64,000 nt of DNA, taken from Ehretia macrophylla (taxonomy: Eukaryota; Streptophyta; Magnoliopsida; Boraginales; Ehretiaceae). Every line of letters begins with the position of its first letter. The first letter of the stretch is position 1. Shown in pieces: positions 9,028 through 46,529 of the stretch. The notes beneath the pieces were generated by a model. The model had not been told where the DNA came from, did no database searches, and was given only the letters and a program-made list of their open reading frames with translations. The position numbers and the translations under genes were made by a program. The stretch lies in the NCBI GenBank assembly GCA_037974665.1, contig CM075766.1, forward strand, positions 45,993,569-46,057,568. Direction: 5' to 3'.

Positions 9028-9037
9028 GTAATATTAA

Positions 9038-9495: not shown

Positions 9496-9504
9496 GTAAT
9501 ATTA

Positions 9505-15466: not shown

Positions 15467-17466
15467 GGCATTTTGGCATAAATATGAGGAGCTTAACTAT
15501 GTTTCCTGACAATGGCTCGCCCCGAGATGCCTAGGAAGAGTTCAGAAGATGGCATGAGGTGATTTTGATAGTAAAACTGACAAAAATGTCTGCAATGGCT
15601 TGAGCTTCTGACTTAAAAGTGTGCAGGTAGCACAAAAGAACGTGTACAGGTTATGCCCTTGGATCAGTTTGTTTTATTGACTACCAAATCTGTATTTAGA
15701 GGCTTTTCAAGATATTATAACTTTACATGTATAGAGACATGGTATAAGCAAGGAGTAACCTCATTTTGTATATTTGTGCAGCTAAATCTTGTGGTCTCTA
15801 TTCACGCTCTTTCTTTCAGGAAGGGAGGATTAGGCTAATCCTACTCATTGCAGCTCTTTTCAGTATTGAGCGATCAATTTGGCAAAACAACTCAAAAGAA
15901 GATAAAAGAAGTATCGTTAATCTATAAATTATAGTATATCCTCATCTTTGACTTTTTGTTCTTTTTATGAACGTTTCTTTGAGCAATAATTTGTAGCCAT
16001 TTTTTCATTTTGGGAAGAGTTTTTCATATGATGCTAGCAGGCTATTCAGAAAATGGTACCATGTCGTAGGCTATTGAGATTAATTCGAATTTTATGGGAG
16101 TGGGAGACAAAAAGAAAAAAATACAAAAAATAAATAAATACCACACTAGGAAAATGAATAAAAAGAATCATTTGGACGATTTTTTTTATAAAAAAAATAA
16201 AAGATTGAGATTAATTCAATTTTGAGGGACTTGATTATGAAAAGCGAATCATCCACCAATTTAAATGAAATGTTTTCATTTAAATAATTCTCGTTTTAAA
16301 TGTGAGATGTCTCGAGTTTAAATTTGTGTATAACATATTACGTGATGCATAATATTTTAGACCTTTTTTAAATCATATATATATATTCCTCCCACGATTT
16401 AGCTATTAACTTTGAAAGTTACTTTGATCATATCTTTTATTTTTTCTTAATTTCGTTGAGGAATTTATAAAATCTAGGAATTAAAGGATAATGAAGCTAG
16501 TACATATTTTTAAGATAATAAAAATTATAAATAAACAAATAATACAATAATTTTTTTTTTTTGGCAAAAGGCGCTTTAGAATTATTTTCTTCTATTTCTA
16601 AATGAACTATAGCTTAACAGATTTCTTTCTTTTTTCCTTTCTTCTTCTTCTTTTTATGTATTTTTTTTATTATTTGGAATTAGGAGCAGATGGTGGATGT
16701 CAAAGAGTCCCCATTACATCAACACGATAGCATCGTGTAGCAATCACACTAAAAATCTTTTTGTCTTTTTTTTTTTCTCTTTTTAAAAACAAAATACATT
16801 ATCATATTACAATATGTTCCTCATTTTTAAAGCCTGTTTCTTTATAACTCGACTGAAATTTTATAAACATTGAATGGACTTGTATAACATTTATACGATC
16901 CACATTATTGAATTAAAAGCCTATGTAAACCATATTGAAAGTCAATTAAAAAATATATCTACACATGATATGTTATAAATCTTTACCAATTGTGCTTATC
17001 TCAATGTTCTTTATTTTTCGTTTTTCCCTTTTCCCTTTTTATTTGATTAAATAGTAACAAAAAGGTTGTCATCTCACAAAGATATATCTTTGTCTAATAA
17101 TCAAATAGTTTAATAAAAACATAAAAATAGTGATCCACCTCTTACACGAAATCGGACCATCCGGTCTTATCCTTACGGACGAAAGACTTGTTACCAAATG
17201 AAGCAATTTTGACCAACTGGCCAATTTGTAGCAGCGCCCCCATGCAGTTTTTTTCCTTAGCTTTCCCTCTCTGGCCACCCACCCCCTCCTTATCTACAGT
17301 TACAAGACACGAACAAGTACTAGAGATCTTTTCGCGTCAAAGTCTCTTGATCAGATTAAATCTTCATGAAACCTCATATAATCAATAACCCATCAACACA
17401 TCCACAAAAACCACCCTTCTCCATCTGCATGGAACAAAAACATAACTATCCTGCCAATCATCAAGC
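15467..17466. other. 3' flank of DUF829 copy 1 and AT-rich spacer
   Basis: Untranslated and intergenic sequence, closely matched in the other units. Short open frames at 15653-15838 and 17188-17388 recur with changes in the copies and show no family motif. The segment from about 17300 may be the promoter and first exon region of the small X exon set. Confidence 0.5.
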
Positions 17467-18493
17467 CTCTCTCTCAGGGTCGATTCAAATAATTTGGGGA
17501 TGTTGGGTGATCATCTAAATAGAGGCCTAATAATTAGATTTTTTCTCAATAAAAAAAACTCTAAATTTCATACTAAAATAATCACAACAAATAAAAGGAC
17601 ATTTCTCTAATGTTCTTTCTCATTATTAAGTCTTTCTTCAGTATATTTATTGGGCCTTAATAATTAAGCTTTATTAAATCTATTGTATATAAGAACAATT
17701 AATAAAAAAAATGAATATAAGTAAAAAAATTAATTATTTCAAGTTAAGATATATAGAAGTATGTAAACAATATCAAAATTTATTACATAAAAAAAAATTA
17801 AAAAAAAAGAGTTGAATGTATACCTCTATTTTTTTTTTTCTTGGGACAGCCTTACTTTCTTATATTATATGTAAAATTAATATCTTAATAAATAAAAATC
17901 GTTTAAATACTGACCTTCAATAGTTGGACCTTCAATAATTTAAAAATCGATTAAATACTAATCGTTTGGTATTCTTTTATTAAATTAAGATATATATTTT
18001 TTTAACTTGGGGCGCCAATCTAAGGGGGCCTTGGGGCAGCTTGGGCCGGGTCTGCTCTCTCTATAAGCCGAAACCTAATCTTGTTTGGTCTTTTCTTTTC
18101 CTTTTTCAGCAAATTATCTTTTACTTGTTTATATCTTTCTATGTTAATTTTTCTTTTTTCTTTTTTTGATTCAAAGATGGTTTAAACCATTTTACATCAC
18201 TTTCAACCTACGTGTGTCGCATTTGTATGTAAATCTTTTATTCATATATGTTAAGAAAAAATTATTTTTTTTGGCAGAATAAGAGGAGAAAACGATTTGA
18301 GTCGATGAAAAAGCTGTTGGACACCAATAACACGCCATGGAGTCGTCAATTTATGCCTGACCAAGTATGTTTTTTTCTTTTTTTCTTTTTGGCTTTTCTT
18401 CTTAAGCATTTTATTCTATTATTATAAATCTGACGTTTATGTTAGATTGGAAAGGGCGATTTGCACAGAAGAAGACGATGATGATGACGAAAC
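17350..18493 (+). pseudogene. X exon set, unit 1, first exon split by hAT insertion
   Basis: An uncharacterised small gene-like structure. A first open segment starts at an ATG near 17367 (MKPHIINNPSTHPQ), a second at 18279-18365 reads from NKRRKRFESMKK to RQFMPDQ, and a third begins at an acceptor AG before 18446 and ends after four arginines. Splice borders look canonical. In this unit the first segment is broken at 17475 by a hAT-like insertion, after which the frame stops. I do not recognise the product. The intact arrangement is in unit 3. Confidence 0.3.
17475..18054. mobile_element. hAT-like nonautonomous element, unit 1
   Basis: A 580-bp AT-rich insertion starting CAGGGTCGATTCAA and ending TTGGGCCGGGTCTG. 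Reading inward, the ends compare as CAGGGTCGATTCAA and CAGACCCGGCCCAA, imperfect TIRs with the 5'-CAG of hAT elements. It is flanked by 8-bp CTCTCTCT (17467-17474 and 18055-18062). Unit 3 carries the uninterrupted site with a single CTCTCTCT at 52059-52066, so the insertion and its target duplication are seen directly. Confidence 0.85.
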
Positions 18494-19882
18494 ATGTTTA
18501 TTTATTTAACTGCACGACTTGGACATAGGATTGAAGAAGAGAAGCAACTTTCTTTTTCCTTCGTGTTAATTCGACGTTGGGTGGTGGTGGTTTTGGATCT
18601 GGGTTTGGTGGTGTGTTCGGTGGTAGAGCTGGTGGGCGGGTGGCGAAGGATGCTGTGATTGATTTGGTGGTGGCGGATCCTTTGGTAAGGGTGGGGGAAT
18701 TGGAATTTCAATCATCTCATATCATTATAACATTCGCGATCATTATATATCATTATATATCATTATAACGATAAGTAATTGGTAAACATTCGCTATAATT
18801 ATATATCATTATAACGATAAGTAATTGGTAAACATTCGCCCAGATCTAGTCACTACAACCCCTTTTGTGAGGAGGCGATAATATGTCCATATAAAGATTT
18901 AATAGTTGTGATAGGCTCATGTAATTATGACAAAATTGTCACATGGAATTCAATGGTGGTGATAAACTAATGTAATTATGAGAAAATAATTTAGATATAC
19001 CATTAATATTGTATCTCTCTTATAATATTATATGATATGAGATAATCCAAATCTGAGAATTGATGGTGGCATTGAAAAAGGTTTAGTACTGGTTGGATAA
19101 GAAACGGCGTTTGTGGTGGTAGAAGGTGGCAGAAAGAGAAGCGAAGAAGGAGGAGGAAAAATAAAATAAAAAGGGGAAGTGAAAATAAAATTAAAAAAAA
19201 AAGTTATAGAATGAGAGTGAAGGGACACTTTATACGGGTATCGAACGGTACTGAGGGCATTAATGGCTTCTCCCCTTAAGGGCATCCCCTTGAAAAGTCT
19301 GAAAAGTCTATATTAAGACATCGATTTTCGTTGAGAGTGAAGTAATAGACTCATAGACCTGTCCCGAATGCCCTAAAAAGCGTAGGGGCATCAGCAAAAC
19401 CAAATTAAAACTTTAGACCCCACAAACAACTAACGACGAAGGTAAGAAAATAAGTATTATATATATATATTTTTTTTAATACACGAAAGTATAATTAAAT
19501 TGAGTCCGTCTTAAAATTATAAATTTTGTAAGAAAATTGTGCGTTTTAAGTATACAGTTTAAGATAGTCAAAGATTAATAATATTAATAATGAGAGGGTA
19601 TAAATTTAATTTTTTAAATTTTTACAGGAAATTGTTATTTGTATTCTACTCGACCATGAGACATTATATTTTATGAGAACATGACCAAAAAAATTCACAA
19701 ATATGAGATTACTTGTCTTCTTCCCTGAAATGCTTGTTAATGTCTTATGAATTATACTTTATTAATTATAAAAAATTATGAAATTATTATGATATCATAA
19801 AATCTTATGCATTACTCAATAGTTAATATGAATTTTTTTTTGGCTAAGTAATAATTAATGTGAATTTTGATGTTGCCAACTG
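18494..19882. other. Spacer between X exons and PreP pseudogene, unit 1
   Basis: Contains a short GGT-repeat (about 18575-18600), a direct-repeat cluster (18719-18840) and AT-rich DNA. The Gly-rich plus frame and Pro-rich minus frame around 18500-18770 follow from the GGT-repeat. I see no gene. Confidence 0.5.
18719..18840. repeat. Direct-repeat cluster (CATTATAACGATAAG...), expanded in unit 1
   Basis: Three phased occurrences of AACATTCGC (near 18729, 18784 and 18831) separate repeats of ATCATTATA and CGATAAGTAATTGGTAAAC. Unit 2 has the same expanded cluster at 35811-35930. Unit 3 has only one copy at about 52835-52871. This groups units 1 and 2 against unit 3. Confidence 0.85.
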
Positions 19883-20045
19883 TTAATTTGGGTGCGGTGC
19901 GGACCACTAAGGCCTTTGTGGTTGGGATTATGCAAAAGTTTCACGCCTTTTGGTTCATATTGGAGCTCTCTTGGCTTTTTACTTTTATTTTTTCCTTTTC
20001 TTCTCCATTAATTTGGGTGCGGTGCGGACCACTAAGGCCTTTGTG
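19883..20045. repeat. 38-bp direct repeat at the PreP truncation edge, unit 1
   Basis: A 38-bp string starting TTAATTTGGGTGCGGTGC lies at 19883-19920 and again at 20008-20045. PreP homology begins directly after the second copy. The pair recurs in unit 2 at 36970-37007 and 37095-37132. It probably records the rearrangement that cut off the 5' half of the gene, before the tandem duplication. Confidence 0.8.
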
Positions 20046-20047
20046 CT

Positions 20048-23000
20048 TTGGGTTTTCTGGATCATCTGCTATTGGGAACTCCTGCTTCTCCTTTGAGGAA
20101 AATACTGCTGGAAAGTGGTTTAGGAGATGCTATTGTTGGAGGTGGCGTTGATGATGACCTTCTTCAGCCACAGTTTAGCATCGGATTGAAGGGTGTGATG
20201 AAAGATAACTTCCAGCAAATAGAAGAGTTAATCATGAGTAGGCTAAAAAAGTTAGCAGAGGAAGGTTTCGATTCTGATGCTGTGGAAGCGTCAATGAATA
20301 CAATTGAGTTCTCTCTTAGAGAAAACAACACTGGCTCATTTCCGCGGGGTCTGGCCCTAATGCTGCGCTCAATTGTAAGAATTGTTCTACTTTTGTGTTT
20401 TTACTTGATTTGTTCCCTTTTTCTTTTCTACTTCTCTTTCTCTTCTCTATATTTAATTATGCTGTTTCCTGGATTTCTAGGGAAAATGGGTCTATCACAT
20501 GGATGCCTTTGAACCGTTGAGATATCAGGGACCTCTAAAGACCTTGAAAGCCAGAATTGCTGCAGAAGGCTCAAAAGCTGTTTTTGCTCCTTTAATAGAG
20601 AAGTTCATCTTAAATAACCCTCACTGTGTAACTGTAGAAATGCAGGTTATCATCCTACCACTGCGTTCTTATATTTTGAGTGATATATCTCTTTGACCAT
20701 AAAGTTGCCAATGAACTTACTTTAGCAGCCTGACCCGGAGAAGGCTTCACTTGATGAAAAGGCTGAAAGAGAGCTTTTAAATAAAGTTAAAGCTAGCATG
20801 ACTCAGGAGGATCTTGCTGAGCTGGCACGTGCTACACATGAACTGCAGTTGAAGCAAGAAACTCCTGACCCTCCAGAAGCTTTAAGGAGTATACCAAGCT
20901 TAACTCTCCAAGATATTCCCAAAAAACCTGTATATGTTTCTACTGAGGTAAGTATTATTTTCTTCTTGAATTCTTTTATTGCTCTATGTTTCTCTTCTGA
21001 ATCAAACTATACCGAGCTTCTAGTTGTAGGTTGGGAATATCAACGGAGTAAAAGTCTTGCAGCGTGATCTTTTCACAAATGATGTTCTTTATACTGAAGT
21101 TGTGTTTAATATGAAGCCTTTGAAGCAAGAGTTACTACCTTTGGTGCCACTTTTTTGGTGCGTTGCCAACTTTATGTCTAGCTATTACTGGTCTGAAATT
21201 TCAGCTACTGGTACTTCTCTCCCTGCTACACCTGTCAGCTTGAGCCCTGCCCTCCTCCCGCCAGTAACTAGTAATGTGATCTAGACCATTATCATCTAAC
21301 TTGGCTGACATTGTGATTGTCCCTCATAACTTTTATCATTGGCAGACCATACCCTTTATCATGTTATGTGAGACAGCGCTTGTTTTGTTTCGGTTTATCT
21401 TTGTTTATAGACCTTATAATGGCTTTTTTTTTTTTCTTCTGGAAAGCACGTTGCTCTTTGCTTGTGAAGAACCCTCCTTTGAAACATATTTTGTTCGTAT
21501 AGCCCATTACAGATGTACTAATTTTGTAAATACTGTCTCCTTACTGGTCATTCATCTTGAACATCTATGTCTAGCCCATTCATTAGCATTGATATTCAGG
21601 CCATATGCCTAAGGTGTGGGTCTGTCATGCCTAGCTAGTTCTACTTATGGATAAGGAACCAAGTTGTCGAATTTCGTACCCTTGGGAAATTCTAGACCTT
21701 CAATTTCCAATGTGTTTCCAGGTCCAAAGTATGCGATGCTCACTGCTGGGGAATACAATTGTGAGGAAAAAGGAGGAGTGACAATTCTACTTTCAGTCTT
21801 TACTTCATTGTGTTTAATTAAGTAACTATTTCAGGGAATTTCCTTCGATAATTTTCTTTGATAGCACTCTTGTAAACGAGAGGTGGTTCTTGTTTCTTGG
21901 TAAAATTGTGTAGAGGGCATGAGTTATATTAGTCCCTACTGAATTCTCGAACTTCGATGCCCCAAGCTTCCTCATAAGGAAAAAAGTGAAATCGCTTCTC
22001 TCTCAATCTTTGCTTCCCCTTTATTCTAGTAACAAACTTAAGGAGAATTTCAGTTCCCATTGTCTTTGATTACTTCTGTCATTTTCCTCCCAAAAGATAA
22101 GAAACAGAAAGAGATGAGGTCCTCGACATCACCTTGTCCCCTTCTCCTTGTTTTTACTGATGCAATCACATTGATACCTTTGAATAGGCACTGTTATTGG
22201 TCGTGTTTGCTTTCTTTTTCTTCAATCTGTTAATGTTTCCTTTGCCCATTTCTCATTTGTTTCCATTGCCAATTTTCCTATGCGGTGTCAATACCTGATT
22301 GTCTTCTTCACTTAGTGCTTCCTAGTTCCTGGGGTGTTGAAAGAGGTTCAGTGAGATGCAGTCCTCTTAAAAGTAGCAAATATAAGAGGACATAGTATAA
22401 ATATTGAAGGGTATTGGGGTGTCAAAAGAAAAAGGAATGTTTATTATTTGACTTGAAAGACAACTTAAAAAATACTGGCCAAAAAACAAAAAGATCATTT
22501 CTAATCCTGCATGTTTTTGGCTCAACAGTTAGTCACTGCTTGAAACGGGCACAAAGGACATGGATTTTGTACAACTGAACCAGTTGATTGGAAGGAAAAC
22601 TGGTGGAATTTCAATATATCCGTTCATATCGTCTAGACGTGGCGAGAAGAGTCCATCTAGCCATATAGTTGTTCGAGGCAAAGCTATGTCTTCACGGACC
22701 GAAGATTTATTTAACCTGGTAAAGTACTGTATTCTGCTTAGCAACTGGCTAGTAATTAATATGGTTCTTCAAGTTACATGTGGCATTTAGTAGTTTTAAC
22801 TGAAAATTGGTGTTTTCAGGGAGATTTTTTTTTGGGTAAATTTCACACTTAGCCTCTATTGTTTAAATATTATTTCAATATAGTCTTTAATATTTTAAAA
22901 GATTCATAGAGGTCCCTAATGTTTACAAAAGTTATTCAAAATGGTCCCTATTATTCAAACTTAGCCAATTTGGTCCTTATTATTTTTCAAAAAATTCAAT

Positions 23001-26000
23001 TTAGTCCCTATTGTTTCTTAAAAAAATTCAATTCAATCCATGAATGTTTTCCCTATTTGGGGATTAAATGAAATTTTATGGGAAACAATAGGGACTAATT
23101 TGACTAGTTTTAAACAATAGGGACCATTTTGAATCACTTTGTAAACATTAGGGACCTCTATGAATCTTTTAAAACATTAAGGATCAACTTGAAAAAAATA
23201 GCAAACAATGGGGACTAAGTGTGAAATTTACCCTTTTTTTAATTTCTTTTTCCATTTTTAAGTTCAGGGATTTCTTAATTATACTCTATTACATTTTCTT
23301 TTTTGTTATGCACATAACACATTTCATTCCACTTCAAATACAATTACAAAAAGGGTGAAATCAGTTCGTACTAATACACCATTCTGTACACAAAATACTA
23401 TTTTCAAGACTGTTACTATATTTTCGTTGAATACAAATTTTCCCTCTAACATCCACAAACTCTATTACATTTTTAAGAACCAAAGCTTTTTTGCTTCAGC
23501 TGTAAATTGACATAGCAGTTCTCAACTTCCATGCTTAGCTATTAACAATTGTAGCATGTGTTTAGTTCTTTTCTTAGCCTACAAATGCCTATGGATATAT
23601 TGGAGTACAGAGTTGGGCTTTCATGTGATCTCCAGCGGGCTCTCATTTATAAATAAAACCCTGAGTGTTGATAGACTTTTCAAACAATCAAACAGAACCA
23701 GGTATCAAACACTGGGAATTGTCTCATCATAATTATTGGGCTACTTGCACCAGTTATTACCTTGAAGGTATACTGTGCTTAAGCCCCAGTAGGAGCAGTA
23801 TTTCTGGGTAGGGAGATTTACTATATGGCCTTCCTCTACTTTACCTGTCCTTATCTTTCTATTAAGTTATTCATGCTTCTTAACATTAGAGTGGTGTTAT
23901 GCATTTTCTTTGGAAGTTCTGGATGAGGACCTTGTACGTAGTTGTTTCATCAATTGAGAGTTTTAAATTCGCCTTGTCAAGATTCTGACATGAATTTCGC
24001 CAATATGGTTGTGTGTTTGAGCTATTCCCTGATATTCTTATTGGAAGATTGATATGCTGTGTATCTCCGTAACAGTCTTTGGCAAAGGATTAACTGAACT
24101 GGCAAAACTTGCTCGATTGTAGGTAAATTGCATTCTTCAGGATGTCCAGCTTACAGATAAACAACGTTTCAAGCAGTTTGTTTCTCAAAGCAGAGCTGGA
24201 ATGGAGGTATCTATTGAAATTTCAAGTGAACAAATCGTAAGAAGAATACTTTAGATTTCTCTAGTATATTAATTCATAATATCTTCAATTTTAGAACCGA
24301 TTAAGAGGCAGTGGTCATGGCATTGCAGCAGCCAGGATGGATGCCAAGCTTAATGTTGCAGGATGGCTCTCTGAACAGATGGGAGGTGTCAGGTTAGGCT
24401 ATTTCTTTTGTTGACATAGGTTGGTTTGCAAGATGGTAAAAATGACTTTACGTATACAGTCAACGTTTAGTACGCTGTTGCTGTTCAGCAGCCCAAGACA
24501 TTGGTCTGTAGTATGGAGATATGTCTGATTAATTAGCTCAAACTAAATTGTATCTTCCATTGTATTTTTATCAAATCGTTGAAGTTAACTCTTCCAACAT
24601 AATTGTAAAACATATCACGTTCTACATTAATATTTTGATGTTTTAACTTCCATATTGGGGGGTTGTCATATCGACACTTTTTGGGAGCTGTAAATTTCAT
24701 CACACTTCCTTCCATAATTTTCTCATCTTGCCTACTTACTAATAGTTGAGTTGCTAATTTGAAATGACCCTTTCTGTACCTCACCCTAGTAGGAAAAGAA
24801 CAGATAAAAAGATGAAAAAGCAAAAGAAGTTTTTAAGTTTTGGTTGGAAGTAACATAGTTTCTTTTTGGCGTTCTTGCAGTTACCTTGAATTTCTACGAG
24901 ATCTTGAGGAGAAAATAGACAAAGACTGGCCTCAAATTTCATCATCTTTGGAGGAGATCCGCAAAGCTCTAATTTCAAAAAATGACTGCCTAGTAAATCT
25001 GACTGCTGATGGGAAAAATCTTATGCATGCAGAGAAACATGTTAGCAGATTCCTTGATTTGCTCCCTAGCTGAACCAGCTGCTTGGGATACACTGCTTCC
25101 TAAGACAAATGAAGCTCTTGTGGTACCTACTTATGTTAGCTTGTTAATCTCCTGTTAAATTTGCTTCTGCATTTCAATTATTCATTCTCACTATGGAACT
25201 TTGCTAATATTTATTTGCTGTTATCTACCCAAGGAAATTAAGCAGCTAATGTTTATGAAGGTGGTTATAAGCTTCATGGCAGTGCATATGTTATTTCAAA
25301 ACATATAGGCAATACATGGTTGTGGGATCGGGTAAGAGTTAGTGGTGGAGCTTACGGAGGGTTTTGTGAGTTTGATACGCATTCTGGTACAGTTTTTCTC
25401 CATAATTTGTTGCTGCATACTGTTGGTTTCTTAGCTCAATCTTCCTTGACGTTGTAAGCTTCTGTTCAGGAGTGTTCTCATTTCTCTCGTATCGGGACCC
25501 CAATTTGTTGAAGACACTTGATATATATGATGGAACACGTGACTTCCTTAGAGAACTTGAAATGGATGATGATACTCTTACAAAGGCAATAATTGGGACG
25601 ATTGGAGATTTGGATGGCTACCAACTACCTGATGCAAAAGGTTATAGTAGGTAAGTTAAAATGCATGCCTATGTTGTGGAGTCATTCTTCATTGCTGTGA
25701 GAGCTCATCCATGAATAATTGTAGATTGGTTCACATTGTAGTCAAGTGAGTTAGTTAATTGTTGCTGAGAGGAACAAGTGGAAGAATAAGGTGGATTCAT
25801 TCTGTTGGGAGGGGGTGGAAGATTATTTTATCCAATGATGCGCGGAAATACAATTACGCAAACAGTTCTATATTTCCCACTCCCGTTCTAGCCTTCTAGG
25901 AGCTCCTTTTTGTTCCTAGAGTTACGTAGATGCCTTAACGAAGAGCAGAAGTGCGTTAGGTTTTGTGTGCCAAATTTTTCAGCGTGGTATATTGTAACTC

Positions 26001-26872
26001 TTGCTTCTCGGATTAGCTTTGTATAGAGGAGCTCTTGGTAAACTGCTTCAGTATTAGGAGTATACTGCAAGGATGAACCTTGCCAAGCCTGGGAGTGAGG
26101 TTTTCGGTTTCTCTACATTGCTAGTCTTTGCCTCTGAATCATCTAAATAGTTTGACCAATAGTTCATACAACTTGGCGATTCATTTAATAGTATTCTTTT
26201 ATACTTAATGTTCAGTTTTAGTCCTTGACATTTGTTCTACTTGCCCTTTTAACAGTGCTAATTCTAGCATGATATACTTGATACGCCTCAATTAATGATC
26301 TCTATTGTTAATTTCAGTTTGGTGCGATACTTACTTGGAGTAACTGATGAGGAAAGGGAAAGGAGACGTGAAGAGATACTATCAACGAGGTAAAATATTG
26401 ATCTCTTATTGATGTGAAATCTAACAAAGTCCTAAATTATCTGTGCCTTGACCTTCATTTCACTCGTGTCATCTCATCTATCTTGCATGTAGCTTAATAT
26501 TTGACTATCTTAAATTGCTTGAGACTTCGTCATATAGGCTATTATTACGATAAAACTGCTAGAAGAATCAAAATTTGGCCCTTATTTTGGACGCTTGCAT
26601 CTGCTGGGTTCTATTGTCTTTGCACATATGTAAGATGTATGGTGTTCTTTTCTGCAATAATGCAATCTGTTTGAGTCGGTTTATTTAGTTGATCCAATCT
26701 GTGATCTAACTTTTATGTTTTACACTGAAGATTGAAAGACTTCAAGGAATTTGCGGATGTAGTCAAGGCGGTTAAAGACGGAGGAGTTGTGGTTGCTGTG
26801 GCATCTCCAGATGATGCTGTTGCTGCCAACAAGGAGCGCTCCAACTTTTTTGAAGTCAAAAAAGCACTGTAA
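20048..26872 (+). pseudogene. PREP: Presequence protease (PreP, M16C) 3' half, copy 1, decayed
   Basis: Homology to plant PreP, the mitochondrial/plastid zinc protease that degrades cleaved targeting peptides, starts abruptly at GFLDHLLLGTPASPLRK. It runs to the usual C terminus FFEVKKAL over 12 exons: 20048-20374, 20481-20645, 20729-20947, 21030-21157, 22529-22718, 24123-24206, 24295-24392, 24881-25134, 25234-25386, 25470-25650, 26318-26389 and 26731-26872. The first ~400 residues, with transit peptide and the inverted zinc motif HxxEH, are missing, and no ATG opens the first exon. Lesions: TAG at 22530-22532 where unit 2 has CAG (family phrase FCQSLLE); a frameshift giving TGA at 25071-25073; a damaged start of the exon at 25234. 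It cannot encode an active protease. Confidence 0.92.
22834..23233. mobile_element. Inverted-repeat MITE in a PreP intron, unit 1
   Basis: Exactly 400 bases from GGGTAAATTTCACACTTAG to its reverse complement CTAAGTGTGAAATTTACCC. The arms continue inward as AGGTCCCTAATG/CATTAGGGACCT and TAGTCCCTATTGTTT/AAACAATAGGGACTA. T-runs on both sides could be a target duplication but are ambiguous. The same 400-bp element sits at the same intron site in unit 2, so it predates that duplication. Confidence 0.85.
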
Positions 26873-27964
26873 GACCTCATATCTTTCTGTTAGTACTTCA
26901 TGCTAGGCTCTATATTGTAATGCTCAAAGAGTTATGTTTTTATAGTTTTTCTCTTTCCTCATCCCCAAGCAACACGAAACAGAGGCAGGACATATGCTAA
27001 AGCATCGGCATTCAACCTCGGATCTCTCAAGAGTTATGAGAAACAATTCTCCGAGTTAGATTTCTCTGAGCACCACTACCTGTCTAGTATGTCGGCTCCA
27101 CGAAACCACACCAAATTAAGCCTTATCTTATTAGGTTGCATTAATTATGTGGATCTGACAACACTCTTTACTCTTGTTGAGGCTATAGGCTTAGGGTAGT
27201 TTGGAATATGATTCAGATGTTAGTCTTTTCTGGTAAATTTTTAACTTGTGAGAATAGGGAAGCAAAGCATATTTCAGTGCTGTTGCTATATTATTTAAAT
27301 GTATCTTATTTGATTTTTATAGAAATAAAAAAATTTGATTTAAGGGAGGTTTAAGTTATTTTAAATCACTTAGTATGTTACACACAAGACTTGATCTCAC
27401 GATCTCTCGTATTTATGGATATAAAAATTTAATTGGCTCTTGGTGCATTTGTAAATTTAGTGCGTCGCATACATGGAGTCCTTTTGATTTATTTTCCTCC
27501 TAATTCCGACAATCTGCGCAGCAGAACACAATAAATGGAAATTTCTTGTACGGCAATCTGCTGCCATGTCATATGTATATAATTTAGTGTCATCTGCGAC
27601 TTCAATGCAGAGATTATTTCCATGTATCCCACGGATATATGGGGGATATTTTTTTATTGGTGAGTTATTTCTTTGGGGACTATAATTACTGGGGTTATAG
27701 CACTGGCGTTAAAAATTTTATTTAATTTTTTAAAGTATAAATATTTATGTATTTGATTTTAAACTTGTACATATCTCGTCAATTATTCAATCATATCATT
27801 TAGTATGATTTTCATATCAGTTATGATTCTTTGTAATATCCTACCATATTTAGTATGATTCTCATATTCTTTGTATCTCTTTGCATGTACTATAAAAGTA
27901 GGCTTACATATTGTACAACGTACATCACTTTAATAAACATTTTTTAACAACGCCGATAAGAGAA
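26873..27964. other. PreP 3' flank and junction to KRP piece B
   Basis: About 900 bases of PreP downstream DNA, then about 170 bases with promoter-like or LTR-like features, then direct entry into KRP exon 3 near 27948 (AACAACGCCGATAAG). This is the duplication junction. The same junction is at about 45051. Confidence 0.6.
27891..27897 (+). promoter_or_regulatory. TATA-like box upstream of KRP piece B
   Basis: TATAAAA lies 74 bases before the ATG at 27965, a plausible distance for a core promoter with a leader of about 40 bases. AATAAA follows at 27932-27937, and the segment ends TTTAACA before the KRP sequence. This order (TATA, AATAAA, end in CA) is what an LTR 3' end looks like, so the promoter may come from a retroelement. 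The unit 2 counterpart is at 44994-45000. Confidence 0.45.
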
Positions 27965-28383
27965 ATGGAATCGTCAACGGCCACAGACAAGAAGACCTCG
28001 ATGGCGGCGAAACCTTCAGCGGCGAAAAAGCCATCAGCTGAGGAGATCGAAGAGTTTTTCTCAGAAGCTGAAAAGCTCCAGCAAAAGCAGCTAAAGCAAT
28101 TCGCAGAAAAGTAAGCAGAGACTATCACGTGTTCAAATTGCTTCCTATTCACTATCTAGTAGTAGTGGTGCGCACGATAACAATCATTGCACCACAAGCT
28201 CATTTTAGAGCATAAAAATTTCGAAAATTTTTCTTTTTTTTCTTTTTTCTTTTCGGGATAAATAAACAAGTAAAATAATCTGATGATTTGTTGTTTGGTG
28301 GTTGTACGTACAGGTACAACTATGATTTCGAGAAGGACGAGCCATTGGAAGGCCGGTACGAGTGGGTTAAGTTGAAGCCTTGA
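27965..28383 (+). CDS. KRP copy B: CDK-inhibitory domain only (71 aa)
   Basis: Two exons, 27965-28110 and 28314-28383, give 71 codons plus stop. The frame opens at MESSTATDKKTS, an internal Met of full-length copy A, and keeps the whole C-terminal kinase/cyclin-binding domain (EEIEEFF, FAEKYNYD, PLEGRYEW). Exons 1-2 and the start of exon 3 are absent, so the N-terminal regulatory half and the KRRK nuclear signal are lost. Compared with copy A it carries a 9-bp in-frame insertion (QLKQ for R around 28085-28096) and lacks the VNSRR segment, with no frameshift. The intron is retained, so it is not a processed copy. It could be a transcribed microprotein or a fragment not yet decayed. Expression is unproven. 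Confidence 0.6.
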
Positions 28384-29442
28384 CGGGAAGCCTCGTTTAT
28401 AAATTATCGGATTTAATAATCCATCTATTAATGCTTTATTTTTTGTTGCATGTTGCGTTTTGCATATGAACTAAGGGAAAAAAAAAAAAAAGAAGGCTAA
28501 AGTTACACGCAGAAAGGCTTCTTTTCTAAAGTTACACGCAGAAGCCTCGGGCACATCTTGTACAAATTTTGGCCTTTATTCACAAAATGAACTAAATCAT
28601 AATGATAAGATCACTTTCCTTTTCTCTTTTCTCGGTCCAAGGTACACCTCATCATTTTTGTACACTTTTTTTTTTTTTTTTTGGCGTTTGTATTCAAGAG
28701 TTGCGAGTTTATTAAGAAACTAAATGTGATAATCTTGCCACAGCACTAGAGAAATGTCTACGCTAATTAATTAAGACTTTAATGATATGACGTGATGGAA
28801 AATTAGTCAATAATGAATACTCCTTATAATATGATATATATTTTTTTGCATTAACACATATTTGACATGTTCACAATGTTTAAATGGAGTATTAATATGT
28901 AGTGACTTGACATAATTAAAAGTTTTAAATATAAATTTATGATTTTTTAGCACAAAAATTATTTGACTCTTTACAAGGATAAAATATGTATTGAGTTGTA
29001 TTATTGTATTATAAAATGTATTTAAAATATATTTTTATATTTAAAATGAGTTACTCGTTATAAAATAAAATTAAGAAAAATAAAAAGATATTTTGAGTAC
29101 TTGTAAAACAATGTGACCAGTATTTAAATCTCTGCAATAATAAGAACTAATTCGACCCAACAATAAGAACGACAACCGTTGAAATTCACGGTGTGATGAG
29201 ATGGCGCAGGATAAGGAATAAACTCTAAAATGCGCGTGAAGCGTACGCATCTGAGCTGGCAAATATGCGATCCCACTCGACGATCCCCCAACGAGAGACA
29301 GCTCGTTGCACACACCCTTGGTACCTCAACCTATACTCACCTCTCACACCCTTTACTCTCTTCTTCTTCAAAATTGAATTTTAATTTTCCCCAATTTCAG
29401 CTCTTAATTTAAGCTAGGGTTAGGGTTTTTGAACCAATTGAT
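28384..29442. other. KRP-B to DUF829 copy 2 spacer
   Basis: KRP 3' flank (to about 28540), then the unit 2 start at 28650 and the upstream region of DUF829 copy 2, including the telo-box at 29420-29428. The minus-strand frames at 29071-29315 correspond to similar frames before copy 1 and look like shadows of conserved promoter DNA. Confidence 0.5.
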
Positions 29443-32525: not shown

Positions 32526-34529
32526 GGCATTTTGGCATAAATATGAGGAGCTTAACTATGTTTCCTGACAATGGCTCGCCCCGAGATGCCTGGGAAGAGT
32601 TCAGAAGATGGCATGAGGTGATTTTGATAGTAAAACTGACAAAAATGTCTGCAATGGCTTGAGCTTCTGACTTAAAAGTGTGCAGGTAGCACAAAAGAAC
32701 GTGTACAGGTAATGCCCTTGGATCAGTTTGTTTTATTGACTATCAAATCTGTATTTAGAGGCTTTTCAAGCTATTATAACTTTACATGTATAGAGACAAG
32801 GTATAAGCAAGGAGTAACCTCATTTTGTATATTTGTGCAGCTAAATCTTGTGGTCTCTATTCACGCTCTTTCTTTCAGGAAGGGAGGATTAGGCAAATCC
32901 TACTCATTGCAGCTCTTTTCAGTATTGAGCGATCAATTTGGCAAAACAACTCAACAGAAGATAAAAGAAGTATCGTTAATCTATAAATTATAGTATATCC
33001 TCATCTTTGACTTTCTGTTCTTTTTATGAACGTTTCTTTGAGCAATAATTTGTAGCCATTTTTTCATTTTGGGAAGAGATTTTCATATGATGCTAGCAGG
33101 CTATTTAGAAAATGGTACCATGTCGTAGGCTATTGCGATTAATTCGAATCTTATGGGAGTGGGAGACAAAAAGAAAAAAATACAAAAAAATAAATAAATA
33201 CCACACTAGGAAAATGAATAAAAAGAATCATTTGGACGATTTTTTTTATAAAAAAAATAAAAGATTGAGATTAATTCAATTTTGAGGGACTTGATTATGA
33301 AAAGCGAATCATCCACCAATTTAAATGAAATGTTTTTATTTAAATAATTCTCGTTTTAGATATGAGATGTCTCGAGTTCAAATTTGTGTATAACATATTA
33401 CGTGATGCATAATGTTTTAGACTTTTTTTAAATCATATATATATATTCATCCCACGATTTAGTTATTAACTTTGAAAGTTACTCTGATCATATCTTTTAT
33501 TTTTTCTTAATTTTGTTGAGGAATTTATAAAATCTAGAAATTAAAGGATAATGAAGCTAGTACATATTTTTAAGATAATAAAAATTATAAATAAACAAAT
33601 AATACAATAATTTTTTTTTTTTTTTGGCAAAAGGCGCTTTAGAATTATTTTCTTCTATTTCTAAATGAACTATAGCTTAACAGATTTCTTTCTTTTTTCC
33701 TTTCTTCTTCTTCTTTTTATGTATTTTTATTATTATTTGGAATTAGGAGCAGATGGTGGATGTCAAAGAGTCCCCATTACATTAACACGACAGCATCGTG
33801 TAGCAATCACACTAAAAATCTTTTTGTCTTTTTTTTTTTCTCTTTTTAAAAACAAAATACATTATCATATTACAATATGTTCCTCATTTTTAAAGCCTGT
33901 TTCTTTATAACTCGACTGAAATTTTATAAACATTGAATGGACTTGTATAACATTTATACGATCCACATTATTGAATGAAAAGCCTATGTAAACCATATTG
34001 AAAGTCAATTAAAAAATATATCTACACATGATATGTTATAAATCTTTACCAATTGTGCTTATCTCAATGTTCTTTATTTTTCGTTTTTCCCTTTTCCCTT
34101 TTTATTTGATTAAATAGTAACAAAAAGGTTGTCATCTCGCAAAGATATATCTTTGTCTAATAATCAAATAGTTTAATAAAAACATAAAAATAGTGATCCA
34201 CCTCTTACACGAAATTGGACCATCCGGTCTTATCCTTACGGACGAAAGACTTGTTACCAAATGAAGCAATTTTGACCAACTGGCCAATTTGTAGCAGCGC
34301 CCCCATGCAGTTTTTTTCCTTAGCTTTCCCTCTCTGGCCACCCACCCCCTTCCTATCTACGGTTACAAGACACGAACAAGTACCAGAGATCTTTTCGCGG
34401 CAAAGTCTCTTGATCAGATTAAATCTTCATGAAACCTCGTATAATCAATAACCCATCAACACATCCACAAAAACCACCCTTCTCCATCTGCATGGAACAA
34501 AAACATAACTATCTTGCCGATCATCAAGC
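32526..34529. other. 3' flank of DUF829 copy 2 and spacer
   Basis: Matches the unit 1 spacer at 15467-17466 nearly base for base. Open frames here (for example 33665-33910) are not conserved in length in the other copies. No gene is supported apart from the possible first X exon near 34430. Confidence 0.5.
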
Positions 34530-35557
34530 CTCTCTCTCAGGGCCGATTCAAATAATTTGGGGATGTTGGGCGATCATCTAAATAGAGGCCTAATAATTAA
34601 ATTTTTTCTCAATAAAAAAAACTCTAAATTTCATACTAAAATAATCACTACAAATAAAAGGACATTTCTCTAATGTTCTTTCTCTTTATTAAGTCTTTCT
34701 TCAGTATATTTATTGGGCCTTAATAATTAAGCTTTATTAAATCTATTGCATATAAGAACAATTAATAAAAAAAATGAATATAAGTAAAAAAATTAATTAT
34801 TTCAAGTTAAGATATATAGAAGTATGTAAACAATATCAAAATTTATCACATAAAAAAAAATAAAAATAAAAAGAGTTGAATATATACCTCTATGTTTTTT
34901 TTCTTGTGACAGCCCTACTTTCTTATATTATATGTAAAATTAATATCTTAATAAACAAAAATCGTTTAAATACTGACTTTCAATAGTTGGGCCTTCAATA
35001 ATTTAAAAATTAATTAAATACTAATCATTTGGTATTCTTTTATTAAATTAATATATATATTTTTTTAACTTGGGACCCCCAATCTAAGGGGGCCTTGGGG
35101 CAGCTTGGGCCGGGTCTGCTCTCTCTATAAGCCGAAACCTAATCTTGTTTGGTCTTTTCTTTTCCTTTTTCAGCAAATTATCTTTTACTTGTTTATATCT
35201 TTCTATGTTAATTTTTCTTTTTTCTTTTTTTATTCAAAGGATGATTTAAATCATTTTACATCACTTTCAATTTACGTGTGTCGCATTTGTATGTAAATCT
35301 TTTATTCATATATGTTAAGAAAAAAATTATTTTTTTTGGCAGAATAAGAGGAGAAAACGATTTGAGTCGATGAAAAAGCTGTTGGACACCAATAACACGC
35401 CATGGAGTCGTCAATTTATGCCTGACCAAGTATGTTTTTTTCTTTTTTTCTTTTTGGCTTTTCTTCTTAAGCATTTTATTCTATTATTATAAATCTGACG
35501 TTTATGTTAGATTGGAAAGGGGGATTTGCACAGAAGAAGACGATGATGATGACGAAA
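34413..35557 (+). pseudogene. X exon set, unit 2, first exon split by hAT insertion
   Basis: The same arrangement as unit 1: ATG near 34430, hAT interruption at 34538, second exon about 35343-35429 (NKRRKRFESMKK to RQFMPDQ) and third exon from 35511. Product unknown. Two of the three tandem copies of this structure are therefore broken at the same base by the same insertion. Confidence 0.3.
34538..35118. mobile_element. hAT-like nonautonomous element, unit 2
   Basis: A 581-bp copy of the unit 1 insertion at the same site, flanked by CTCTCTCT (34530-34537 and 35119-35126). It starts CAGGGCCGATTCAA and ends TTGGGCCGGGTCTG. The identical site shows that it was copied by the segmental duplication and did not transpose independently. 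Confidence 0.85.
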
Positions 35558-36969
35558 CATGTTTATTTATTTAACTGCACGACTTGGACATAGGATTGAA
35601 GAAGAGAAGCAACTTTCTTTTTCCTTCGTGTTAATTCGACGTTGGGTGGTGGTGGTGGTGGTGGTGGGGGTGGTGGTGGTTTTGGATCTGGGTTTGGTGG
35701 TGTGTTCGGTGGTAGAGCTGGTGGGCGGGGTGGCGAAGGATGCTGTGATTGATTTGGTGGTGGCGGATCCTTTGGTAAGGGTGGGGGAATTGGGATTTCG
35801 ATCATCTCATATCATTATAACATTCGCTATCATTATATATCATTATATATCATTATAACGATAAGTAATTGGTAAACATTCGCTATAATTATATATCATT
35901 ATAACGATAAGTAATTGGTAAACATTCGCCCAGATCTAGTCACTACAACCCCTTTTGTGAGGAGGCGATAATATGTCCATATAAAGATTTAATAGTTGTG
36001 ATAGGCTCATGTAATTATGACAAAATTGTCACATGGAATTCAATGGTGGTGATAAACTAATGTAATTATGAGAAAATAATTTAGATATACCATTAATATT
36101 GTATCTCTCTTATAATATTATATGATATGAGATAATCCAAATCTGAGAATTGATGGTGGCATTGAAAAAGGTTTAGTACTGGTTGGATAAGAAACGGCGT
36201 TTGTGGTGGTAGAAGGTGGCAGAAAGAGAAGGGAAGAAGGAGGAAAAAATAAATAAAAAGGGGAAGTGAAAATAAAATTTTAAAAAAAAGTTACAGAATG
36301 AGAGTGAAGGAACTCTTTATACGGGTACCGCACGGTACTGAGGGCATTAATGGCTTCTCCCCCGAAGGGCATCCCCTTGAAAAGTTTGAAAAGTCTACAT
36401 TAAGACATCGATTTTCGTTGAGAGTGAAAAAATGGACTCATAGAGCTGTCTCGAATGCCCTAAAAGGCGTAGGGGCATCGGCGAAACCAAATCAAAACTT
36501 TAGACCCCACAAACAACTAACGACGAAGGTAAGAAAATAAGTATTATATATATATATTTTTTTTAATACACGAAAGTATAATTAAATTGAATCCGTCTTA
36601 AAATTATAAATTTTGTAAGAAAATTGTGCGTTTTAAGTATACAGTTTAAGATAGTCAAAGATTAATAATATTAATAATGAGAGGGTATAAATTTAATTTT
36701 TTAAATTTTTACAGGAAATTGTTATTTATATTCTACTCGACCATGAGACATTATATTTTATGAGAACATGACCAAAAAAATTCACAAATATGAAATTACT
36801 TGTCTTCTTCCCTGAAATGCTTGTTAATGTCTTATGAATTATATTTATTAATTATAAAAAATTATGAAATTATTATGATATCATAAAATCTTATGTATTA
36901 CTCAATAGTTAATATGATTTTTTTTTTTGGCTAAGTAATAATTAATGTGAATTTTGATGTTGCCAACTG
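35558..36969. other. Spacer between X exons and PreP pseudogene copy 2
   Basis: Includes an expanded GGT trinucleotide run, which gives a poly-Pro frame on the minus strand, and the direct-repeat cluster at 35811-35930. The 80-codon frame at 36298-36540 is not kept in unit 1 and is not supported as a gene. Confidence 0.5.
35811..35930. repeat. Direct-repeat cluster, expanded, unit 2
   Basis: The same three-phase arrangement of ATCATTATA, CGATAAGTAATTGG and AACATTCGC as in unit 1, against a single copy in unit 3. Confidence 0.85.
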
Positions 36970-37132
36970 TTAATTTGGGTGCGGTGCGGACCACTAAGGC
37001 CTTTGTGGTTGGGATTATGCAAACGTTTCACGCCTTTTGGGTCACATTGGAGCTCTCTTGGCTTTTTACTTTTATTTTTTCCTTTTCTTCTCCATTAATT
37101 TGGGTGCGGTGCGGACCACTACGGCGTTTGTG
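36970..37132. repeat. 38-bp direct repeat at the PreP truncation edge, unit 2
   Basis: Copies at 36970-37007 and 37095-37132. The second carries substitutions (ACGGCGTTTGTG for AAGGCCTTTGTG) that unit 1 lacks. Confidence 0.75.
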
Positions 37133-37134
37133 CT

Positions 37135-40100
37135 TTGGGTTTTCTGGATCATCTGCTATTGGGAGCTCCTGCTTCTCCTTTGAGGAAAATACTGCTCGAA
37201 AGTGGTTTAGGAGATGCTATTGTTGGAGGTGGCGTTGATGATGACCTTCTTCAGCCACAGTTTAGCATCGGATTGAAGGGTGTGATGAAAGATAACTTCC
37301 AGCAAATAGAAGAGTTAATCATGAGTAGGCTAAAAAAGTTAGCAGAGGAAGGTTTCGATTCTGATGCTGTGGAAGCGTCAATGAATACAATTGAGTTCTC
37401 TCTTAGAGAAAACAACACTGGCTCATTTCCGCGGGGTCTGGCCCTAATGCTGCGCTCAATTGTAAGAATTGTTCTACTTTTGTGTTTTTACTTGATTTGT
37501 TCCCTTTTTCTTTTCTACTTCTCTTTCTCTTCTCTATATTTAATTATGCTGTTTCCTGGATTTCTAGGGAAAATGGGTCTATCACATGGATGCCTTTGAA
37601 CCGTTGAGATATCAGGGACCTCTAAAGACCTTGAAAGCCAGAATTGCTGCAGAAGGCTCAAAAGCTGTTTTTGCTCCTTTAATAGAGAAGTTCATCTTAA
37701 ATAACCCTCACTGTGTAACTGTAGAAATGCAGGTTATCATCCTACCACTGCGTTCTTATATTTTGAGTGATATATCTCTTTGACCATAAAGTTGCCAATG
37801 AACTTACTTTAGCAGCCTGACCCGGAGAAGGCTTCACTTGATGAAAAGGCTGAAAGAGAGCTTTTAAATAAAGTTAAAGCTAGCATGACTCAGGAGGATC
37901 TTGCTGAGCTGGCACGTGCTACACATGAACTGCAGTTGAAGCAAGAAACTCCTGACCCTCCAGAAGCTTTAAGGAGTATACCAAGCTTAACTCTCCAAGA
38001 TATTCCCAAAAAACCTGTATATGTTTCTACTGAGGTAAGTATTATTTTCTTCTTGAATTCTTTTATTGCTCTATGTTTCTCTTCTGAATCAAACTATACC
38101 GAGCTTCTAGTTGTAGGTTGGGAATATCAACGGAGTAAAAGTCTTGCAGCGTGATCTTTTCACAAATGATGTTCTTTATACTGAAGTTGTGTTTAATATG
38201 AAGCCTTTGAAGCAAGAGTTACTACCTTTGGTGCCACTTTTTTGGTGCGTTGCCAACTTTATGTCTAGCTATTACTGGTCTGAAATTTCAGCTACTGGTA
38301 CTTCTCTCCCTGCTACACCTGTCAGCTTGAGCCCTGCCCTCCTCCCGCCAGTAACTAGTAATGTGATCTAGACCATTATCATCTAACTTGGCTGACATTG
38401 TGATTGTCCCTCATAACTTTTATCATTGGCAGACCATACCCTTTATCATGTTATGTGGGACAGCGCTTGTTTTGTTTCGGTTTATCTTTGTTTATAGACC
38501 TTATAATGGCTTTTTTTTTTTTTTTCTTTTTCTTCTGGAAAGCACTTTGCTCTTTGCTTGTGAAGAACCCTCCTTTGAAACATATTTTGTTCGTATAGCC
38601 CATTACAGATGTACTAATTTTGTAAATACTGTCTCCTTACTGGTCATTCATCTTGAACATCTATGTCTAGCCCATTCATTAGCATTGATATTCAGGCCCT
38701 ATGCCTAAGGTGTGGGTCTGTCATGCCTAGCTAGTTCTCCTTCTGGATAAGGAACCAAGTTGTCGAATTTTGTACCCTTGGGAAATTCTAGACCTTCAAT
38801 TTCCAATGTGTTTCCAGGTCCAAAGTATGCGATGCTCACTGCTGGGGAACACAATTGTGAGGAAAAAGGAGGAGTGACAATCCTACTTTCAGTCTTTACT
38901 TCATTGTGTTTAATTAAGTAACTATTTCAAGGAATTTCCTTCGATAATTTTCTTTGATAGCACTCTTGTAAACGAGAGGTGGCTCTTGTTTCTTGGTAAA
39001 ATTGTGTAGAGGGCATGAGTTATATTAGTCCCTACTGAATTCTCGAACTTCGATGCCCCAAGCTTCCTCATAAGGAAAAAAGCGAAATCGCTTCTCTCTC
39101 AATCTTTGCTTCCCCTTTATTCTAGTAACAAACTTAGGGAGAATTTCAGTTCCCATTGTCATTGATTACTTCTGTCATTTTCCTCCCAAAAGATAAGAAA
39201 CAGAAAGAGATGAGGTCCTCGACATCACCTTGTCCCCTTCTCCTTGTTTTTACTGATGCAATCACATTGATACCTTTGAATAGGCACTGTTATTGGTCGT
39301 GTTTGCTTTCTTTTTCTTCAATCTGTTAATGTTTCCTTTGCCCATTTCTCAGTTGTTTCCATTGCCAATTTTTCTATGCGGTGTCAATACCTGATTGTCT
39401 TCTTCACTTAGTGCTTCCTAGTTCCTGGGGTGTTGAAAGAGGTTCAGTGAGATGCAGTCCTCTTAAAAGTAGCAAATATAAGAGGACATAGTATAAATAT
39501 TGAAGGGTATTGGGGTGTCAAAAGAAAAAGGAATGTTTATTATTTCACTTGAAAGACAACTTAAAAAATACTGGCCAAAAGACAAAAAGATCATTTCTAA
39601 TCCTGCATGTTTTTGGCTCAACAGTCAGTCACTGCTTGAAATGGGCACAAAGGACATGGATTTTGTACAACTGAACCAGTTGATTGGAAGGAAAACTGGT
39701 GGAATTTCAATATATCCGTTCATATCGTCTAGACGTGGCGAGAAGAGTCCATCTAGCCATATAGTTGTTCGAGGCAAAGCTATGTCTTCACGGACCGAAG
39801 ATTTATTTAACCTGGTAAAGTACTGTATTCTGCTTAGCAACTGGCTAGTAATTAATATGGTTCTTCAAGTTACATGTGGCATTTAGTAGTTTTAACTGAA
39901 AATTGGTGTTTTCAGAGAGATTTTTTTTGGGGTAAATTTCACACTTAGCCTCTATTGTTTAAATATTTTTTCAATATAGTCCTTAATGTTTTAAAAGACT
40001 CATAGAGGTCCCTAATGTTTACAAAAGTTATTCAAAATGGTCCCTATTGTTCAAACTTAGCCAATTTGGTCCTTATTATTTTTCAAAAAATTCAATTTAG

Positions 40101-43100: not shown

Positions 43101-43975
43101 TAACTCGGATTAGCTTTGTATAGAGGAGCTCTTGGTAAACAGCTTCAGTATTAGGAGTATACTGCAAGGATGAACCTTGCCAAGCCTGGGAGTGAGGTTT
43201 TCGGTTTCTCAACATTACTAGTTAACCTCTTTGCCTCTGAATCATCTAAATAGTTTGACCAATAGTTCATACAACTTGGCGATTTATTTAATAGTATTCT
43301 TTTATACTTAATGTTCAGTTTTAGTCCTTGACATTTGTTCTACTTGCCCTTTTAACAGTGCTAATTCTAGCATGATATACTTGATACGCCTCAATTAATG
43401 ATCTCTATTGTTAATTTCAGTTTGGTGCAATACTTACTTGGAGTAACTGATGAGGAAAGGGAAAGGAGACGTGAAGAGATACTATCAACGAGGTAAAATA
43501 TTGATCTCTTATTGATGTGAAATCTAACAAAGTCCTAAATTATCTGTGCCTAGTCCTTCATTTCACTCGTGTCATCTCATCTATCTTGCATGTAGCTTAA
43601 TATTTGACTATCTTAAATTGCTTGAGACTTCGTCATATAGGCTATTATTACGATAAAACTGCTAGAAGAATCAAAATTTGGTCCTTATTTTGGACGCTTG
43701 CATCTGCTGGGTTCTATTGTCTTTGCACATATGTCAGATGTATGGTGTTCTTTTCTGCAATAATGCAATCTGTTCGAGTCGGTTTATTTAGTTGATCCAA
43801 TCTTTGATCTAACTCTTATGTTTTACACTGAAGATTGAAAGTCTTCAAGGAATTTGCGGATGTAGTCAAAGCGGTTAAAGACGGAGGAGTTGTGGTTGCT
43901 GTGGCATCTCCAGATGACTCTGTTGCCGCCAACAAGGAGCGCTCCAACTTTTTTGAAGTCAAAAAAGCACTGTAA
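37135..43975 (+). pseudogene. PREP: Presequence protease (PreP, M16C) 3' half, copy 2, decayed
   Basis: Same truncation point and 12-exon layout as copy 1: 37135-37461, 37568-37732, 37816-38034, 38117-38244, 39625-39814, 41231-41314, 41403-41500, 41990-42243, 42343-42495, 42579-42758, 43421-43492 and 43834-43975. The CAG codon at 39626-39628 is intact here where copy 1 has TAG. The frameshift giving TGA at 42180-42182 is shared with copy 1 and so is older than the duplication. Private lesions are TAG at 42477-42479 (Glu in copy 1, in GGFC-E-FD) and a 1-bp deletion near 42597 that leads to TGA at 42617-42619. The catalytic N-terminal half is absent. Not functional as a protease. Confidence 0.92.
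39930..40329. mobile_element. Inverted-repeat MITE in a PreP intron, unit 2
   Basis: A 400-bp duplicate of the unit 1 element at the same intron position, with terminal GGGTAAATTTCACACTTAG and its reverse complement. Several substitutions separate the two. Confidence 0.85.
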
Positions 43976-45067: not shown

Positions 45068-45483
45068 ATGGAATCGTCAACGGCCACAGACAAGAAGACC
45101 TCGATGGCGGCGAAACCTTCAGCGGCGAAAATGCCATCAGCTGAGGAGATCAAGGAGATCGAAGAGTTTTTCTCAGAAGCTGAAAAGCTCCAGCAAAAGC
45201 GATTCGCAGAAAAGTAAGCAGTGATTATCACGTGTTCAAATTGCTTCCTATTCACTATCTAGTAGTAGTGGTGCGCACGATAACAATCATTGCACCGCAA
45301 GCTCAGTTTAGAGCATAAAAATTTGGAAAATCTTTTTTTTTTTTTTTTCTTTTCGTGATAAATAAACGAGTGAAATAATCTGATGATTTGTTGTTTGGTG
45401 GTTGTACGTACAGGTACAACTACGATATAGTGAAGGACGAGCCATTGGAAGGCCGGTACCAGTGGGTTTTATTGAAGCCTTGA
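45068..45483 (+). CDS. KRP copy C: CDK-inhibitory domain only (71 aa)
   Basis: Exons 45068-45213 and 45414-45483 give 71 codons plus stop. The start MESSTATDKKTS and the C-terminal inhibitory domain match copies A and B. A private 9-bp in-frame insertion turns EEIEEFF into EEIKEIEEFF. The last residues read GRYQWVLLKP, closer to copy A than to copy B. The intron and both splice borders are intact. As with copy B, the N-terminal half and nuclear signal are gone. Open frames maintained through in-frame indels in both copies argue mildly for selection, but short frames can survive by chance in young duplicates. Confidence 0.6.
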
Positions 45484-46399: not shown

Positions 46400-46488
46400 C
46401 TATTATTCTTTGTATATTTCCTCCACCTGTTTACATTTCAAAGCACACACACATCGCAACACCCAAGACCAAACTCGAAGCTCACACG

Positions 46489-46529
<41 letters not shown>

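Follow-up and report, generated by a model that had tools for sequence, protein, structure and literature searches.

KRP1(109-191), an engineered form of KRP1 from which the first 108 residues have been removed, is described as more stable, with stronger CDKA;1 and CYCD3;1 binding in the yeast two-hybrid system and a stronger effect in Arabidopsis trichomes than the full-length protein (accessible part of PMC2891705). In ICK1 the C terminus matters for the binding of CDKA, whereas binding to D-type cyclins depends on a region lying upstream of it. Most ICK/KRPs of group A hold motifs 1 and 3 only, both of which are C-terminal (accessible part of PMC5338338). As far as that text goes, KRPs that consist of the domain only thus have a precedent. 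The KRPs of soybean measure 168-224 aa (accessible part of PMC9911667).

The 64,000-nucleotide stretch of Ehretia macrophylla DNA analysed here (the window; C3:45993569-46057568) contains three KRP genes, KRP-A, KRP-B and KRP-C. KRP-B shares with the KRP/ICK family a C-terminal CDI domain (PF02234), and its last intron interrupts the same codon as in KRP-A, but it encodes 71 aa against 192, lacks the N-terminal half and has sequence from a long terminal repeat (LTR) directly upstream. Like KRP1(109-191) it comprises the C-terminal part alone; that protein, however, is engineered and has 83 residues, whereas KRP-B is natural, shorter and carries a three-residue insertion. The group A proteins are likewise natural KRPs with C-terminal motifs only, but they form a phylogenetic class (according to the part of the source available), whereas KRP-B derives from a longer gene, of which it is one truncated copy in a tandem set. 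Human p27Kip1 (1jsu chain C) is a distant homolog, to which residues 16-69 of KRP-B can nevertheless be aligned, including KYNYDFEKDEPLEGRYEW against KWNFDFQNHKPLEGKYEW. No solved plant KRP was found in the PDB with four KRP-type queries (E<=1), which returned p27 and p21 chains together with 8bct and 3oco, and a literature search, with most subscription journals outside its coverage, found no paper on a truncated KRP associated with an LTR or retrotransposon and, for microproteins among Kip-related proteins, a single paper whose title concerns flowering time. We propose, with a confidence that falls barely short of even, that KRP-B is a truncated, chimeric LTR-KRP gene and as such a natural likeness of KRP1(109-191).

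Structure of KRP-B and its neighbouring copies

Table 1. Features of the KRP copies and of the DNA around KRP-B (window positions)
Feature	Position	Strand	Remark
KRP-A, 4 exons	7622-7882, 7999-8048, 8204-8401, 8600-8669	+	full length, 192 aa, intact
Spacer 5' of KRP-B	27469-27754	+	in the A locus downstream of PreP0 (C3:45991661-45992723); 85.8-91.5%, three pieces
Ty1/copia LTR fragment	27750-27945	+	196 bp; candidate promoter; from genome matches and LTR borders
TATAAAA	27891-27897	+	74 nt upstream of the ATG
Remnant of KRP exon 3 with the 4 nt preceding the ATG	27946-27964	+	possible 5' UTR; from comparison with 8210-8249
KRP-B first coding exon	27965-28110	+	146 nt; from former internal Met
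KRP-B intron	28111-28313	+	GT..AG; position of the last intron of KRP-A
KRP-B second coding exon, including the TGA	28314-28383	+	70 nt
KRP 3' flank common to copies A, B and C	28384-28527	+	
LTR fragment before KRP-C	44853-45048	+	same fragment as before KRP-B
KRP-C, 2 exons	45068-45213, 45414-45483	+	same truncation as KRP-B, 71 aa

The two-exon reading frame of KRP-B is intact from the ATG at 27965 to its TGA. The initial annotation had described a 71-residue frame that opens at a former internal Met, with intron and stop preserved, and that differs from copy A by the loss of VNSRR (15 nt) and a gain of three residues (9 nt); all of this was verified. The CDI match spans residues 23-69 of 71 (Pfam, E = 1.1e-15) and is the sole Pfam domain reported for KRP-B at E<=1; as in KRP-A, it is C-terminal and split by the last intron. 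Its 57.9 bits lie above the curated cut-off of 25, compared with 64.6 for KRP-C, 65.4 for KRP-A and 67.5 for the corresponding part of the KRP gene on the homoeologous contig C13, and the lower whole-domain score is probably caused by the three-residue insertion. Small CDK inhibitors of the SIAMESE-related (SMR) kind have SMR motifs in place of a CDI. The N-terminal half found in KRP-A, including a KRRK basic stretch, is absent, as it also is from some other KRPs (group A). KRP-B would thus encode a single-domain protein derived from a larger one, which agrees with the structural side of the term microprotein, and the lone 71-residue product is probably disordered.

Descent from a full-length KRP is supported by gene order (see below) and by an alignment with the region of KRP-A that spans 602 columns, the intron among them, at 84.2%. 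In a genome search with the 567 bp of KRP-B, copy C was recovered with E = 3.3e-233 and copy A with E = 4.9e-182. Within the reading frame 11 of the 68 aligned residues are replaced relative to KRP-A, and 21 nt of KRP-A are absent just 5' of the ATG. An origin as a processed retrocopy is ruled out because the intron has been retained. At least nine exon-level matches to PF02234 were found in the genome (1.58 Gb, 20 contigs), three of which are the KRPs of the window.

Tandem block and origin of the truncation

Repeat units of about 17 kb were detected within the window by blastn. The repeated block consists of part of a PreP gene, a KRP and a third gene, and is present once on C13 and three times on C3. 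Since C13 holds a single ordered block, with one copy of each gene (PreP from ~20682570, KRP to 20698559, third gene to ~20705794), the order PreP, KRP, third gene can be taken as ancestral. PreP was identified by its match to PDB 2fge (E = 1.1e-53) and by the Pfam domains Peptidase_M16_C and M16C_assoc. A further PreP with its flank, here PreP0, was found in the 30 kb upstream of the window, the matching part being C3:45984924-45991665. The two PreP copies of the window (20044-20509 and 37131 onward) are 5'-truncated: they resemble the upstream PreP and that of C13 only from 20044 and 37131 on, respectively, the 2fge match runs from residue 318 onward, and the zinc-site motif HILEH, present in the PreP upstream of the window, is absent from 15000-20500 and 34000-37600. 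The repeat unit therefore seems to begin inside PreP. The third gene, which we take to be DUF829-like, gave no Pfam match among the pieces scanned.

An insert at 46363-46890, before the third copy of the third gene, does not align to the other two units and contains an ATG near 46531 whose product starts with MEGTKLDKWGYEVKTCSDACISAINAYYHQ, presumably resembling exon 1 of a TPR (TTC38-type) gene. Each PreP copy contains an imperfect palindrome (22834-23233 and 39930-40329), the two matching each other in inverted orientation, and an inverted repeat with 161-nt arms, 94% complementary, lies downstream of KRP-A (9029-9504). The divergence between the B and C units (24000-29250 versus 41103-46340) increases from ~1.6-1.8% in PreP and the spacer to 9.4% at 28801-29250, which suggests uneven exchange between units.

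The spacer 5' of KRP-B can be aligned with the A locus as far as 27754 (C3:45992723), and similarity to KRP resumes within exon 3, where 27946 corresponds to window position 8210. In the KRP-A locus these two points enclose 9,054 bp, in which lie the promoter of KRP, its first two exons and the initial 6 bases of exon 3, so that ~9.05 kb are missing in B and C; the figure of 9,054 does not give the loss exactly, because the A spacer may have grown since. The idea that a duplication breakpoint inside KRP cut B and C directly was dropped, since the B spacer matches DNA that separates PreP0 from KRP-A and lies immediately beyond the edge of the window.

The LTR fragment at this junction has matches at ten places outside the locus at 78-81%, including four pairs spaced 4.6-4.7 kb apart; the remainder of the 38 matches listed are 26 shorter pieces and the copies before KRP-B and KRP-C. 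The element L036 has LTRs of 229 bp, and the reading frames that they enclose have matches to RVT_2 (E = 1.1e-65), to gag_pre-integrs and, with a score under its cut-off, to copia gag. An LTR on C16 starts with TGATGAAG, ends with ACTTACA and is bordered by ATGTA on both outer sides, whereas the piece at KRP-B misses ~14 nt at its start and 11 at its end. Because both ends are trimmed, a simple insertion of an intact LTR is not supported, and the junction resembles the outcome of end-joining in which an LTR fragment was captured, or else an insertion that was trimmed later. The ~48 bp adjoining the fragment (27707-27755), which match many contigs at 82-91%, are probably a small repeat.

The structure and origin of the KRP-B locus are well supported. 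The block, made up of the 3' end portion of PreP together with KRP and the third gene, was duplicated in tandem; comparison with the A locus shows that a common ancestor of B and C lost the promoter of KRP, its first two exons and the beginning of exon 3, with 196 bp of copia LTR now at the junction, and a later unequal exchange may have left the truncated gene in both units. In addition to what the initial annotation had noticed, copy C is an equal case and the DNA directly 5' is LTR-derived; the ancestral gene order, the possible LTR promoter and the non-random replacements in KRP-B (see below) are further additions.

Rates and direction of sequence change

KRP-B and KRP-C differ at 2/137 positions in the exon 3 part, 8/70 in exon 4, 10/200 in the intron, 24/414 in the 3' flank, 14/874 in the spacer and 8/206 in the LTR. 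The exons together (10/207) are not distinguishable from the noncoding parts (spacer, LTR, intron and 3' flank; 56/1694, Fisher P=0.23), whereas exon 4 alone has changed faster (Fisher P=0.003). Nine of the exon differences, read by eye, are nonsynonymous and one is synonymous. A codon model of four sequences (A, B, C and the C13 gene; 68 codons) yielded an omega of 0.30 for A and the C13 gene and of 0.72 for B/C. Two omegas fitted no better than one ratio (lnL -487.521 vs -488.241, not significant), and the B/C value did not differ significantly from 1 (lnL -487.521 vs -487.643). The dN/dS comparison with copies A and C, proposed earlier as a check, thus gave no sign of amino-acid constraint on B/C over these 68 codons, and purifying selection on the protein is not demonstrated, since omega is indistinguishable from 1.

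These rates are what one would expect if B and C were relics, that is, 5'-truncated pseudogenes that are open only because too little time has elapsed, an explanation to which we give somewhat less than an even chance. It agrees with the loss of the promoter and the first two exons and with neutral simulations, in which one copy was still intact since the B-C split in a fraction of 0.30-0.31 at 2.75% divergence, falling to 0.11-0.13 per lineage at 5% and 0.02-0.03 at 8%. The PreP copies in these units have lost their 5' ends as well, so truncation alone is no sign of function here. It is less easily reconciled with the fact that both KRP copies are open and that the coding length changes (-15 in B and C, +9 in B, +9 in C), as well as the -21 just 5' of the ATG, are all multiples of three; the corresponding share is 15/89 indels, or 15/43 without one-base indels, in two long repeat-unit alignments that include some coding DNA and have one unit in common. 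The LTR-borne TATA and the clear first ATG of KRP-B, together with the nature of its replacements, speak against a relic too.

Within the 46-residue domain compared, which starts at PSAEE, KRP-B is replaced at five sites. Three of these hold R, I and Q in A, C and the C13 gene, a fourth V in A and C, and a fifth R in A and the C13 gene; KRP-B has Q, F, E (from Q), E (from V) and K, respectively. At four of the five, the new residue is also present in two or more of five other KRPs encoded in the genome (one residue being dropped each from the C7 and C1 proteins for equal columns), the exception being the V to E change, which departs from the paralogs. The M to K change just before PSAEE, which departs from A, C and the C13 gene, lies outside the comparison. 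Relative to the same ancestor, a parsimony guess that uses the C codons without the C insertion and CGT or CGA at one codon, the corresponding numbers of family-matching sites are 0/5 for A, 1/6 for the C13 gene and 0/1 for C.

Nine base changes were counted in KRP-B, one of them a silent T/C change of unclear direction. Random sets of nine base substitutions, with stop-containing sets excluded, gave four matches with P 1.25e-4 to 3e-4, reached the family score of KRP-B with P 0 to 2.5e-5 (40,000 trials) and reached its p27 score with P 4.5e-4 to 6.75e-4; five residues drawn at random gave P 5e-6 to 1.5e-5. All these values are post hoc and optimistic, since the simulations were designed after the pattern had been seen and treat clustered changes as independent. 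In phmmer searches of the PDB, KRP-B matched p27 (1jsu) with E=7.3e-5, whereas the values were 0.02 (C), 0.069 (A) and 0.083 (C13 gene) for the others; KRP-B is closer to human p27 than its relatives because its replacements move towards paralog residues.

As judged from the sequences, the pattern may reflect selection or conversion from a KRP not seen here. That gene conversion from another KRP supplied the consensus-like residues of exon 28314-28383 is plausible, though we regard it as distinctly less than an even prospect. The changes are clustered at 28327-28331 and 28369-28371, in line with the elevated rate of this exon noted above, but no donor emerged from a whole-genome search with 28310-28390 (E<=10), which returned B, C, A and the C13 gene only, nor was a matching tract seen by eye in the last exons of five other KRPs; a very short tract or an unassembled donor is possible. 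Conversion would make the residues of this exon uninformative on selection on B, and it is compatible both with KRP-B as a chimeric gene and with KRP-B as a relic.

Putative promoter and predicted product

The copia LTR fragment with its TATA box is a possible promoter of KRP-B. In aligned LTR relatives the TATA is kept as TATAAAG or TATAAAA. Since the piece carries the TATA region of the element, the KRP Met at 27965 would be the first AUG of a transcript starting near 27920, from which the old last intron would be spliced; no ATG occurs between TATAAAA and this codon, around which both -3 and +4 are G. The predicted 71-aa protein would bind and inhibit CDKA/cyclin complexes, yet lack the N-terminal regions for instability and localisation. 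B may subsequently have been returned towards the family consensus, either by selection or by copying from a different KRP, the direction of change being observed and its cause proposed.

That KRP-B is a chimeric LTR-KRP gene is favoured by the C13/C3 block, the junctions, the two open reading frames, the in-frame indels, the replacements in B, the p27 match and the parallel of KRP1(109-191). It is opposed by the omega of 0.72, the near-noncoding rate of the exons, the neutral survival of ~0.3, the lower Pfam score and the V to E and M to K changes. On these sequence grounds we rate a function of KRP-B as close to evenly balanced. Of the domain-only inhibitor suggested in the initial annotation, the domain-only part holds (position of the CDI, laboratory parallel KRP1(109-191)), whereas the part that presumes a working gene is weakened by an omega indistinguishable from 1 and the reduced Pfam score.

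By analogy with KRP1(109-191), KRP-B would act as a small inhibitor that is changed in its stability and localisation, but of uncertain strength because three residues have been added. These residues fall in the p27-aligned part upstream of KWNFDF, and in ICK1 it is the region upstream of the C terminus that matters for D-type cyclin binding (PMC5338338, accessible part), which would fit a decoy or assembly factor that binds CDKA or cyclin D, inhibits poorly and blunts full-length KRPs. We consider this quite improbable, the truncated KRP1 acting more strongly than full-length KRP1 in Arabidopsis trichomes (PMC2891705, accessible part). Unlikely as well, though less so, is the far-reaching scenario of a new gene born by deletion and LTR capture, driven by the copia fragment, equivalent to the hypermorph known from the laboratory and with a kinase-binding hairpin that was selected back to the ancestral KRP/p27 consensus once the truncation had occurred, that acts as a small dominant brake under transposon-type (e.g. 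stress-responsive) control.

If expressed, KRP-B would be nature's version of a well-known engineered truncation and would illustrate how a deletion, together with a borrowed LTR, can free a cell-cycle inhibitor from its regulatory half. With copies A, B and C at a single locus, full-length and domain-only forms can be compared directly, and the consensus-ward change in B would make it possible to test whether a truncated duplicate has regained binding residues. KRP-C has an upstream ATG at 45021, absent from KRP-B, which is followed after nine codons by a stop and lies near the expected transcription start, 27 nt past the start of the KRP-C TATA.
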